A stretch of 64,000 nucleotides of DNA. Source: Caldilineaceae bacterium (GTDB lineage: Bacteria; Chloroflexota; Anaerolineae; Caldilineales; Caldilineaceae). The notes under the pieces were generated by a model, which worked only from the letters and a program-made list of their open reading frames with translations, ran no database searches and was not told the origin of the DNA. A program made the position numbers and the translations under genes. Location of the stretch: NCBI GenBank assembly GCA_026645575.1, contig JAPKMW010000054.1, positions 1 through 64,000 of the forward strand, read 5' to 3'. Below, in pieces: positions 30,071 to 34,924 of this stretch; the first letter of the stretch is position 1; each line of letters begins with the position of its first letter.

Positions 30071-30194
30071 AGCCGTGGAGGAGAACCCGAAAACCGATGT
30101 TGTTGTTCCGGTTGTGCGGGTTGTTGTTGTTACGGTAGGCGCAACGGGCGTTGTTATCATTGTTGTTGAACGAGCCGCCCCGCAACACGCGACC
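30071..30194 (-). ncRNA. DGR template repeat (TR)
   Basis: The 124-bp segment aligns without gaps to the variable repeat at 31816-31939 (constant offset 1745). All 17 differences fall on the 31 template adenines of the minus strand; none of the other 93 positions differs. Read in the target frame it would encode RGGSFNNNDNNARCAYRNNN, i.e. adenine-rich AAC/AAT codons at the sites to be diversified, the classic TR design. It starts 18 bp after the avd stop codon. Its RNA is copied by the DGR reverse transcriptase with adenine-specific errors. Confidence 0.97.
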
Positions 30195-30212
30195 TATCAG
30201 CCATTCCCCGCA

Positions 30213-30596
30213 TTAACGCCCGCGCATGGCGTGCGTTGTTGCTTTTTCTTCGGTGACTTTGCGCCAGCCGCCCAGTAATTTGCCCAACTCTGTCACTATG
30301 CCCGCAGCGTGGTGATATTGCCCCAGGGTAAACCAACGCATGCGATGCACCAATCGCAAGTAGAGACGCACTTTATTCAATTGCGCATCGGCGTGGCTCA
30401 ACCGTTCCAGCCGCAGTTGACCGCGCAAGCTATTCGCTTCCAGGATGCGTTCTTGAAAATCAAAGGCGGCATCCAGTAAACGACGGGTGACGGTGTGGCG
30501 ATGGAGCCGGGGAAAATGATTGGTTTGTGGCACCAGCCAAGCCAGAAAATCATGGGTTTTGACAAAGAGCGGCATTTCTTCGGGGGCGGCGTTCAT
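30213..30596 (-). CDS. avd: DGR accessory variability determinant (Avd-like)
   Basis: A 127-residue, all-helical basic protein. The pattern MPLFVKTHDFLAWLVPQTNH, FPRLHRHTVTRRLLDAAFDF and LNKVRLYLRLVHRMRWFTLG then AGIVTELGKLLGGWRK is that of the four-helix-bundle Avd proteins. These form a barrel-shaped pentamer that binds nucleic acid and the reverse transcriptase. ATG overlaps the RT stop by 4 bp (ATGA), so the two are translationally coupled. The template repeat follows at once, so avd mRNA and TR RNA are likely one transcript. Confidence 0.93.
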   Translation of the reverse strand: MNAAPEEMPLFVKTHDFLAWLVPQTNHFPRLHRHTVTRRLLDAAFDFQERILEANSLRGQLRLERLSHADAQLNKVRLYLRLVHRMRWFTLGQYHHAAGIVTELGKLLGGWRKVTEEKATTHAMRGR

Positions 30597-31751: not shown

Positions 31752-31780
31752 ACCCCCAGAGGGTAGAGGGCAGAGATTTT

Positions 31781-34700
31781 TCAGAGGGCAGAGTTTTCAG
31801 AGATCAGAAAACCAGAGCCGGGGAGGAGAACCCGAAAACCGAAGCTGCCGTACCGGACGTGCGGGCTGACGTCGTTACGGTAGGCGCAACGGGCGCCGTT
31901 AACATTGACGTTGAACGAGCCGCCCCGCAACACGCGACCAGAGTCGCCTTCCAAGTCTTCTTTTACTCTTTCCTGATATTTCTCGTAGTTACTCTGCCAT
32001 TGTGTACTGCACCACTCCCATACATTCCCACTCATATCAGCCGCGCCGCAAAGGGCATTGCCATTGGGAAAAAGCCCAACTGCTGATGTACTCTCAATCC
32101 CGGTTTCATTCATGTTGCAGCGGTCAGCACTGAACTTGGCACCCCATGGATAGTTGCGTCCATCAGTATTCCGGGCAGCCAGCTCCCATTCCGATTCCGT
32201 TGGCAACCTTACCTCATATTGTACCACATCTGTAAGCCAGTTGCAAAAAGCGACAGCTTCATACCAACTAATGCCAACTTGTGGATGATTGGATGTTTGA
32301 AACACAGCACGATATTCGTCAGGACCTTCAATCTGATTTTCCTTACGCCATTGCCAGCCAGCCTTCGTCCAATACTGTTGTTTGGCATAACCACCGGCTT
32401 CCACAAAAGTGTTGTACTGCGCAACAGTAATCGGGTAGCGACTGATGCGGTAGGGTTGCGTAATGAGGTTGCAAGTAAATTGCGGCTTGCCGTCGTAGCG
32501 TTCGTTGCCCCCCATAATAAACAGCCCCGGCTCAATAACTTTCGACCAAACCAGATCGGGCAAGCCATTTTTCACGCCTACCCCTGGTCGCGGGTCACCT
32601 AACTGCCCTAAAGCAATACCAGCTTCCGCCCGTAGGCGTGGCGTGGCTTTATTCATGAGGCGGGCATTCGTGATAAGGCTATTTAGTCGCTCGGTCAAAG
32701 CATGGTACAGTGGGTGATCTTGTTCTTGATCAAACCACTCCAGACAACCGCTCGCCGCCAGTTCCGCCGCAGCTAACTGCTGGTCAGGCGGTAGGGTGGA
32801 CTTTTGCCCCACCTCAGCCAGTTGCAACAGAAACGTTTGGGCATTGCGCCGGGCGTTCATGCTCAAGTAACCGGCCACCAGCAGGATCGGTTCGCGCCAC
32901 CAGCTTTGCAGGACAAATTTCTCTTCTTGCAGCAGACGCACCATCGCCTCCACGCCCCCTTCCCCGCGCACCACTTCGGCCAGATAGCGGGCGACCATAA
33001 ACTCTTGAAAGGCCAGGTGGAAAAAGCGATAAAGCCCCAGCCGTTCTTCGAGCAAGGTACCACGCAAGCGGGTCAGTTGCAGGAAGTTGCGCACCAGATC
33101 CGCTGGTTGACCAGCCGCGCGCAACAGGCGCAGCAGAGCATCATCCTCAATTTCACGCCCTTGTTTCTCCCCCTGACGGTGTAGTTCCCAGGCAATCTGC
33201 TGCACCAGATCGCGATGCACCTCATGGCTCTGACCGACCCAACGCCGGATCTCTTCCAGTGCTTCGCTATCCTCCAAGCCATAATCGGGCCAGAGCAAGC
33301 TGTCGGTGGCGCGTTGGTAGAGTTCGGCGCGATGTTGGGGGAAACGCCGCTCATTGAGGTGGACAATCAACAGCAGCCGCACCATGAGCGGGCTGTCGAT
33401 CAAACGTGCGACATCTTCACCCAGGCGGCGCTGCCGTTCGGCTTCCAGGTCGCGAATGCCGGCCAGCAGTTCGTCAATCTGACGGGCGCGCACAATGGCA
33501 TCGTCGTAATAAAGGGCGCTGTATGCCTGTTGCACCAACGCCGTCACATGGGCTTCATCCAGTGCTTGCACCCGCACTTCCCGGAAATCGCGGCCCAACG
33601 CCGTGCGCCCTTGATAGGCAGCAATGCGACAGGTCACCACCAGACGCAGATCAGCCTTACCATCGGCCAGCCGTTCAATTGCCTCGCGGATGCGGGTGCG
33701 CTCAGCCTCATCCGGCACTTCATCCAGCCCGTCGAGCAGCAGAATCAGGTGGCGACCATTGTGCAAGAGACGGGTAAAGAAATCGGGCAACAGATCAACC
33801 ACCCCCTCCTGCTGCTCCACGAGATAGTCGGCAATAAAGGCGGCCAGCGTGCGCGGTTGGCTGTTATGTTGGATACTTTGGCGCCGATGCAGCGCATAGA
33901 CACTGAGCGGCAACACAATCGGGATGGGCGCTTCGGTTATTTCCGCCGGCAGACCGACTTTGGTGTGGGCCAGGGTTAACTCATCCACCAGCAGCGCTTG
34001 CGCCAGCGTATGGGCCAGATGTTGCAAGACGGTGGTCTTGCCCGAACCGGGACCGCCGGTGACAATCAGCCGATCTCCTTGAGCAAGCAGTTCATTCAGT
34101 GTAATGGTGCGTTCGCGTTCTTCCCGTGCAATCGTTACTTCATCCTCGTCGTTCCAGCGCAGTGGTGAGCCGGCTTTGGCAGGGCCAACTTGTCGTTGGG
34201 CATGAAAGACAGCGGTTGCCGCCAGCGGGACATAGACGGTATCTAACGCGAGCGTCATCGCTTGTTCCCCCTGACGCCGCATCCCGCGCAACGTCACCTG
34301 ACCGTAGTGACGGCAAACCCAGCGGAGATAGGTGCGAATCTGTTCCTTCAGGGCGGGTTCGTCAACAGGCGGTGCGCCTCCTTGCTGTGACGGATGGTAG
34401 TAGTTGATGATCTGCGTGATCTGCTTGCCCACCGCCACACCAACGTTACCGGTCAGATTGCCGGTTTGAATGAAGTCGCCCTCAACCGTCAACCGGCTGC
34501 CCACTTCCCTGAGCGCGGTCTTGAGCGTTGCGGCAAACCAATCCTTGTCAGCTTCGCTCATGACAGTCTGCACCACGCGCAACGCCTCAAAACGTTCCAG
34601 CAGATCATCCAGCGCTTTACGCCACGCCTCGTCAGTGGTGGCTTTGGCGGTCAACTCTTGGGCAAGTTCTTCCTCGGTGCTATGGTGCCAGTGGCTGATC

Positions 34701-34924
34701 TGTTCAGCCACCAGATTACCGCCAACGCCAGCGGCTAATGCGCCAAGCGTCATCAACAGGGGGTAATTCTGCGCACCAATGGCCTGGCGCGCTGCTTCCA
34801 CCAGCGGAAAGATGGTTGCTGTGGAGAGCGCGCCGTAGAGAACGCCAGGGGTCAACTGGCGGGCGCTTGTCGCCAGCGAACGTAGCTTTGTCCCGGCTTT
34901 GGCTTGCCATTCACTCAAGTTCAT
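31781..34924 (-). CDS. DGR target: NACHT-type STAND NTPase with C-terminal FGE/C-type-lectin domain
   Basis: A 1047-residue protein. Residues 20-75 hold two hydrophobic segments (GVLYGALSTATIFPLVEAA; YPLLMTLGALAAGVGGNLVA), possibly membrane-associated. A short Gly-rich strand motif (GDFIQTGNLTGNVGVAVG) and a helical stretch follow. The NACHT domain has Walker A LIVTGGPGSGKTTVLQHLA near 290 and Walker B LILLLDGLDEVPDE near 390. A helical region precedes an FGE-sulfatase domain from about 790 (LPTESEWELAAR, NVWEWC). Its last block, about 996-1036, is the variable repeat. By analogy with STAND proteins, ligand binding at the diversified domain would drive NTP-dependent oligomerisation and an output. 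ATG 34924 follows GGGAG. Confidence 0.94.
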   Translation of the reverse strand: MNLSEWQAKAGTKLRSLATSARQLTPGVLYGALSTATIFPLVEAARQAIGAQNYPLLMTLGALAAGVGGNLVAEQISHWHHSTEEELAQELTAKATTDEAWRKALDDLLERFEALRVVQTVMSEADKDWFAATLKTALREVGSRLTVEGDFIQTGNLTGNVGVAVGKQITQIINYYHPSQQGGAPPVDEPALKEQIRTYLRWVCRHYGQVTLRGMRRQGEQAMTLALDTVYVPLAATAVFHAQRQVGPAKAGSPLRWNDEDEVTIAREERERTITLNELLAQGDRLIVTGGPGSGKTTVLQHLAHTLAQALLVDELTLAHTKVGLPAEITEAPIPIVLPLSVYALHRRQSIQHNSQPRTLAAFIADYLVEQQEGVVDLLPDFFTRLLHNGRHLILLLDGLDEVPDEAERTRIREAIERLADGKADLRLVVTCRIAAYQGRTALGRDFREVRVQALDEAHVTALVQQAYSALYYDDAIVRARQIDELLAGIRDLEAERQRRLGEDVARLIDSPLMVRLLLIVHLNERRFPQHRAELYQRATDSLLWPDYGLEDSEALEEIRRWVGQSHEVHRDLVQQIAWELHRQGEKQGREIEDDALLRLLRAAGQPADLVRNFLQLTRLRGTLLEERLGLYRFFHLAFQEFMVARYLAEVVRGEGGVEAMVRLLQEEKFVLQSWWREPILLVAGYLSMNARRNAQTFLLQLAEVGQKSTLPPDQQLAAAELAASGCLEWFDQEQDHPLYHALTERLNSLITNARLMNKATPRLRAEAGIALGQLGDPRPGVGVKNGLPDLVWSKVIEPGLFIMGGNERYDGKPQFTCNLITQPYRISRYPITVAQYNTFVEAGGYAKQQYWTKAGWQWRKENQIEGPDEYRAVFQTSNHPQVGISWYEAVAFCNWLTDVVQYEVRLPTESEWELAARNTDGRNYPWGAKFSADRCNMNETGIESTSAVGLFPNGNALCGAADMSGNVWEWCSTQWQSNYEKYQERVKEDLEGDSGRVLRGGSFNVNVNGARCAYRNDVSPHVRYGSFGFRVLLPGSGFLISENSAL
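31816..31939 (-). repeat. DGR variable repeat (VR)
   Basis: The 3' coding end of the target gene, matching the template repeat except at template adenines. It encodes RGGSFNVNVNGARCAYRNDV then SPHVRYGSFGFRVLLPG where the template would encode Asn-rich sequence: 12 residues changed, including N to V, D, S, Y and G, D to V, I to F and H to P. The last change (plus-strand 31821) is in the near-invariant 3' tail and may be part of the homing-initiation difference. RGGSF and GFRV are the fixed framework of the FGE fold. Confidence 0.97.

Follow-up and report, generated by a model that had tools for sequence, protein, structure and literature searches.

A complete diversity-generating retroelement in a Caldilineaceae contig, predicted to rewrite the binding end of a NACHT protein, with a conserved structured RNA 3′ of its template

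Contig JAPKMW010000054.1 of a Caldilineaceae bacterium (assembly GCA_026645575.1), analyzed over positions 1 to 64,000 (the window), carries a diversity-generating retroelement (DGR) whose parts all lie on the minus strand. The original prediction had named an intact set of components, and each was recovered here, with coordinates confirmed base by base: a reverse transcriptase (RT) with YVDD and GNLTSQ, an Avd protein whose gene overlaps that of the RT by 4 bp, a 124-bp template repeat (TR) 18 bp after avd, a matching variable repeat (VR) in frame at the 3′ end of a large target gene, and open frames throughout, according to the open reading frame (ORF) calls. We are highly confident that the locus has complete DGR anatomy and is predicted to rewrite the binding end of a likely immune-sensor NACHT protein. 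The features, including the likely core of the initiation of mutagenic homing (IMH) site, are as follows.

34924-31781, minus strand: target gene, ORF of 1047 aa
34490-34924, minus strand: N-terminal domain of the target, putative effector or adaptor, residues 1-145, modeled as an eight-helix bundle
33521-33868, minus strand: NACHT domain (Pfam extent), residues 353-468
31826-32539, minus strand: FGE-type C-type-lectin domain, predicted sensor, residues 796-1033
31939-31816, minus strand: VR, in frame, target residues 996-1036
31822-31842, minus strand: likely IMH core, an adenine-free 3′ stretch identical in TR and VR
VR 31821 = C and TR 30076 = A, minus strand: fixed mark, from comparison of the TR/VR pair
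31755-31815, minus strand: TCTG-repeat tract directly 3′ of VR, 6 copies within the first 100 nt
31735-31751, minus strand: perfect hairpin GCGGGGG-TAT-CCCCCGC, 3-nt loop
31712-31727, minus strand: perfect hairpin GCCGCC-GATA-GGCGGC, then CGCGA and eight T
31651-30593, minus strand: RT gene, ORF of 352 aa with YVDD and IGNLTSQ
30596-30213, minus strand: avd, ORF of 127 aa, 4-bp overlap with the RT gene
30194-30071, minus strand: TR with 31 adenines (30 on the 5′ side of the IMH-like core), 18-bp gap from avd
30040-29856, minus strand: conserved structured RNA, 30 nt 3′ of TR, from covariance model R1 and covariation

A repeat search of the window returned a single 124-nt pair, 86% identical and 1745 bp apart. 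TR and VR agree at 107 of 124 bp, and all 17 mismatches fall on TR adenines, out of 31 such adenines (hypergeometric p 7.7e-13); the VR base is never A at any of these sites, and once the TR adenines are ignored the two repeats agree at 93/93 positions. No second VR was found on either strand of the 64 kb, since the next best place matches only 44 of the 93 non-adenine positions. To the window region we added the related sequences L001-L087 (88 sequences together, many being overlapping pieces of one locus) and retained repeats 50 nt or longer in which TR adenines accounted for 75% or more of the mismatches, with p < 1e-4. This yielded 35 non-redundant TR/VR pairs in 31 sequences (the pair of L018 comes in two pieces), in which 537 of 571 mismatches lie at TR adenines, a share raised by the pair selection.

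The original prediction had held that variation at non-adenine positions would speak against diversification, and homologues of the target protein allowed this to be examined. From the best 120 of 1954 matches, 109 gave a usable VR alignment, including the window's own protein (P0121), and 11 were dropped. Identity to the window averaged 0.11 at codons holding TR adenines, 0.70 at those free of them and 0.50 over the 55 residues upstream of VR. Non-adenine codons were the more conserved in 108 of 109 rows, hence in every homologue other than the identical P0121. The sharpest case is P0124, which matches the window at 52 of 55 flanking residues and at all 23 non-adenine codons, and at 3 of 18 adenine codons, all of its residues there being reachable. 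Homologues may use other templates, and these data therefore show diversification at the level of the family, not of this strain.

Comparison with solved structures placed the BPP-1 DGR RT as the best relative of the window's RT (177.8 bits, 35.8% identity to BPP-1 brt), followed by a group II RT at 72.6 bits; placement among group II introns or retrons, named beforehand as a refuting outcome, is thus contradicted by similarity, not by an RT tree. Its YVDD (YxDD) and GxxxSQ motifs we take to be DGR-type marks. The profile search proposed for Avd matched two curated families above their cut-offs, Pfam PF22296 (59.3 bits vs 40) and NCBIfam NF033474 (87 bits vs 80). The closest RT among 120 listed matches is 91% identical and named Caldilineaceae, as are the other four organism-named matches. 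Among 20 relative loci, one is a Phycisphaerae record and the titles of the other 19 place them in Chloroflexota; both results point to a likely Chloroflexota host close to Caldilineaceae.

The target protein combines a helical N-terminus, a NACHT ATPase and a C-terminal FGE/C-type-lectin (CLec) domain ending in VR. Both the NACHT (46 bits) and FGE-sulfatase (167.7 bits) matches exceed their Pfam cut-offs, and a P-loop, GGPGSGKTT, lies at about residues 290-298, upstream of the Pfam-matched NACHT segment. The AlphaFold2 model of the whole protein has a pLDDT of 85.5, and a model of residues 1-145 a pLDDT of 94.3 and a pTM of 0.88. PADLOC gave three weak ATPase matches (best 18.8 bits), and NCBIfam EruA scored 31.8 bits against a cut-off of 1000. 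Moreover, the protein is a mosaic: P0122 is close to it at residues 1-660 and falls to 49/65 at residues 931-995, and P0124 is close at residues 1-180 (147/171) and 931-995 (59/65) and about half identical or less at 181-775. The NACHT part is thus common to P0122, the N-terminus to P0122 and P0124, and the FGE end to P0124 and P0131; effector, switch and sensor modules seem to have been swapped separately.

Published systems frame what such a protein may do. In bacteria, phage protection is on record for NACHT and other STAND proteins whose C-terminus carries a sensor, although no CLec sensor had been among those tested (PMC10907252). Like the window's target, these proteins have an N-terminal domain, then a NACHT ATPase, then a C-terminal sensor; the sensor here differs in being, by prediction, DGR-diversified. 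DGR targets that join NACHT to CLec/FGE have already been published for multicellular bacteria, together with a proposed role in immunity (PMC10907252), and DGR-linked conflict systems also appear in PMC7159879. The locus therefore adds a member to a known kind (Dore 2024). Close examples, Thiohalocapsa PB-PSB1 DGR 3 and DGR 6 as well as RT clade 5D, have the same central NACHT or other STAND ATPase and C-terminal CLec/FGE domain with VR; some such targets carry N-terminal extensions without known domains, and filamentous Chloroflexi are among the hosts (Dore 2024, PMC10907252). The window differs from these elements in holding one VR in 64 kb and in having no peptidase among the immediate neighbors scanned, with two S41 peptidase genes at 40618-43327. 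In the Treponema denticola DGR, the target TvpA is a single-domain protein (PMC6328139), whereas here the domain is fused to NACHT.

Several points weigh against the immune reading: CLec domains on STAND proteins are reported to have lacked experimental characterization (PMC10907252), comparison of the N-terminal domain with the PDB gave no clear match, and no known effector family was matched among the neighboring genes scanned. Because the neighbors and the N-terminal domain gave no such match, the immune role is drawn from architecture and literature only. The alternative that the target serves kin recognition or cell-surface binding instead of phage defense, named for such targets in the same source (PMC10907252) and consistent with the lack of a recognized effector partner, is the strongest rival considered here. 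We regard it as possible, yet the less probable function, given the phage protection recorded for C-terminal-sensor NACHT/STAND proteins, among which none with a CLec sensor was tested (PMC10907252).

Beyond the coding parts, the 3′ flanks of TRs share a structured RNA of about 160 positions. The flanks of 18 TRs, the window's among them, were aligned with MAFFT without structure as a seed, and RNAalifold returned 24 pairs, of which 19 (alignment A3) or 20 (A4) keep pairing through changes on both sides. In A3, 96.4% of cells are paired compared with 73.2% in shuffles (0/500 as high), a control inflated by kinship; paired cells drop to 38-44% when the partner is slid, a control biased by taking the structure from the same alignment. 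The model-fitted alignment A5 (38 distinct rows, including two probable noise rows) pairs in 95.7% of cells; 1 of 500 shuffles matched its count of pairs with both-side changes, and 0 of 500 did so for the other measures. The resulting covariance model, R1, matches the window at 30040-29856 with 122.5 bits (E 9.4e-32). The RNA has no Rfam match, and tRNA and Rfam scans of the 64-kb window returned no matches.

Searched at E up to 0.1 in 67 of 89 sequences (430 kb), R1 gave 45 matches, one of them in the window. Once seven duplicates of the same locus were removed, 26 of the 31 pair loci, among them 8 of the 13 outside the R1 seed, had a match no further than 150 nt 3′ of TR, and none had one 3′ of VR. 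Another 12 matches have no detected TR associated with them, and two of these (22.8 and 14.9 bits) resemble noise. We extended the search to 150 genomes of the class to which a Caldilineaceae genome belongs, Anaerolineae (R1 at E 1e-4, RT at E 1e-30): R1 matched in 26, the RT in 34 and both in 22 (Fisher p 4e-14). For 25 of the 39 R1 matches an RT is no more than 2.5 kb away, with 12 matches downstream of it, 11 ahead of it in the same direction and 2 opposite; the other 14 have none so near. Since the RNA lies both before and after the RT, it goes with TR and not with a fixed RT position.

In BPP-1, recruitment of bRT-Avd and priming of cDNA in IMH* are ascribed to the folded spacer (Sp) RNA that separates TR from brt (PMC12875486). 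The RNA described here occupies the matching place 3′ of TR and is, by this analogy, likely its counterpart; a short CTACGGCTTG stretch common to both was noticed by eye. Some results weigh the other way: R1 has no match above noise in BPP-1 and none at the two cyanobacterial and one betaproteobacterial DGR loci tried, and a match within 150 nt of TR is missing in 5 of 31 pair loci (L040 has one about 170 nt away). Taken by itself, the window RNA shows no better folding than shuffled versions of it (z -1.07; 28/200 at least as good), so that the structure rests on covariation. The covarying RNA could instead be mainly a transcription terminator with a leader structure, not bound by the RT. Its GC-rich 3′ helix, the T-rich sequence after it in several relatives and its location in the window after the last DGR gene would suit that function, but 11 of the 25 RT-near matches precede the RT in the same direction, where a terminator would cut the RT off. 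Furthermore, helices 1 and 2 also covary, and the RNA follows TRs and never VR. Termination as its main function is therefore unlikely, and a role as spacer RNA remains the better account.

The RNA and template also occur apart from an intact RT. In L099 (G088:C1:3208500-3218500, on a 4.69-Mb contig), TR (5385-5468), RNA (5532-5692) and VR (4531-4614) are kept beside an RT remnant of about 100 aa and a broken avd. A good RT match is found no nearer than 450 kb away, and for that reason the L099 template may be served in trans. Genome G039 holds seven TR-like matches (contigs C57, C94, C132 and C348) and G043 eight, with three RT matches each; one template may serve several remote targets in these genomes, and some genomes may carry several DGRs.

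We further compared the 3′ ends of the repeats in 32 pairs (30 distinct TRs) with a recognizable core coding for GFR or similar; three pairs lack such a core. Taking the first mismatch that lies 15 nt or more 3′ of the core, 29 of 32 pairs have TR A/VR C and 3 have TR C/VR G; with this distance requirement dropped and the comparison confined to the aligned part, 29 pairs give 26 A to C, 2 C to G and 1 T to A, and three pairs have no such mismatch. Pair selection favors a mismatch at a TR adenine, but it does not favor C as the VR base. Of the TR adenines inside the repeats, 465 are changed in VR (217 to G, 194 to T and 54 to C), against 372 that stay A. As C makes up only 12% of these changes, yet is the VR base in 29 of 32 pairs, the terminal mismatch reads as a fixed TR/VR difference and not as a product of mutagenesis. 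The expected confinement of variation to the 31 TR adenines holds for all 17 mismatches, with the amendment that the 31st adenine (TR 30076/VR 31821) is a fixed difference and probably not diversified; about 30 are likely diversified. In BPP-1, five mismatches in the TR/VR 3′ region set the direction of transfer (PMC3240598), and the same five were visible in our sequence comparison. The A/C mark is likely a one-base version of the IMH*/IMH distinction, upstream of which transfer would end.

The 3′ flank of VR has its own signature. Counting TCTG in the 100 nt after each repeat, for 34 of the 35 pairs, gave a mean of 4.0 after VR (at least 3 copies in 28/34 flanks) and 0.5 after TR (at least 3 in 0/34); shuffled VR flanks averaged 1.4 and random places 0.5. 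Similar tracts follow several, not all, VR-like sequences on contigs without an RT match (L074 has one TCTG), and in L010 the flank of a second VR is nearly the same as that of the first. No earlier mention of a TCTG tract after VR was found in the portion of the DGR literature covered. Phage VRs are followed by hairpins with GRNA loops at 4-34 bp (PMC3240598); the two window hairpins lie beyond that range, at 64 and 88 nt from VR, and the GATA loop of the second fits the GRNA consensus of that study. This hairpin (31712-31727) may double as a terminator.

Activity of the element in this organism, and with it the rewriting of VR, is a prediction. Decay is known in the relative L099, and the element could be silent, its parts intact, retrohoming stopped in the lineage and its VR differences old. 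This we consider quite improbable: all frames are open, the covarying RNA and the A/C mark are kept, and the mismatches strike solely TR adenines, whereas old neutral decay would strike other bases. Negligible probability attaches to an RT of group II intron or retron type that happens to sit next to a chance repeat. In its favor, the best NCBIfam RT model is a group II one (148 bits, below its cut-off of 300); against it stand the BPP-1 DGR RT, 105 bits above the best group II RT among solved structures, and the p value of the repeat pattern (7.7e-13).

For an active DGR we propose the following course. A transcript with the avd 3′ end, TR and the structured RNA would be made; by analogy with the BPP-1 spacer, the RNA 3′ of TR would bind RT-Avd and position or prime cDNA synthesis across TR. 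TR adenines would be copied with errors, which matches what is observed: all 17 mismatches sit on TR adenines, and relatives show this pattern too. The cDNA would then replace VR upstream of the observed A/C mark, which would spare TR as recipient and let VR keep its C, and the TCTG tract and hairpins present 3′ of VR would mark the target site. The changed residues would fall in the FGE/CLec domain, where ligand binding could switch the NACHT ATPase and, through it, the helical domain at the N-terminus; the resulting response would probably serve phage defense or kin recognition. With the BPP-1 DGR (mtd-avd-TR-Sp-brt), the locus has in common an RT, an Avd, avd directly 5′ of TR, a TR/VR 3′-end difference (IMH*/IMH), a hairpin 3′ of VR and an RNA 3′ of TR (PMC3240598, PMC12875486). 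It differs in that the RT gene lies upstream of avd rather than after the spacer, the mark is one base instead of five mismatches, the target is a NACHT-FGE protein and R1 does not find BPP-1.

Other features adjoin the DGR. Upstream of the target gene lies a perfect 29-bp inverted repeat with an 11-nt loop (34991-35059), one of several near-perfect palindromes of at least 27 bp in the window, and then an SNF2 helicase gene (35372-37318) that resembles DrmD/BrxH far below the curated cut-off. At the DGR 3′ end, four related GGTCAGTGCC(G/A)CGCACGC-type copies alternate in orientation (29643-29810), and downstream on the same strand are two small overlapping genes, 29158-29478 and 28865-29203 (DUF7718, DUF5647). 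Farther away, a SpoVR-like gene (48047-50797) has an internal LAGLIDADG_3 match, suggesting an intein or homing insert.

Collectively, we find it fairly probable that Anaerolineae DGRs share an uncatalogued spacer-RNA family, a one-letter one-way A/C mark and a VR site of TCTG tract and hairpins, and that template, RNA and target site travel as a portable cis-acting kit without being tied to the RT. As results of comparison, both the RNA family and the one-base mark may be new, within the partial literature covered; the main text of PMC10907252 has "spacer" 0 times and "secondary structure" twice, on repeats like miniature inverted-repeat transposable elements (MITEs). The conserved RNA offers a comparative handle on how cDNA synthesis begins in cellular DGRs, for which the known basis, in the literature covered, is one phage element. 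The R1 model allows templates to be found even without an RT, and the A/C mark predicts, to a single base, the point at which the transfer of information ends. The locus itself is a clean case of a NACHT protein tied to targeted hypermutation, an arrangement proposed as bacterial adaptive immunity.

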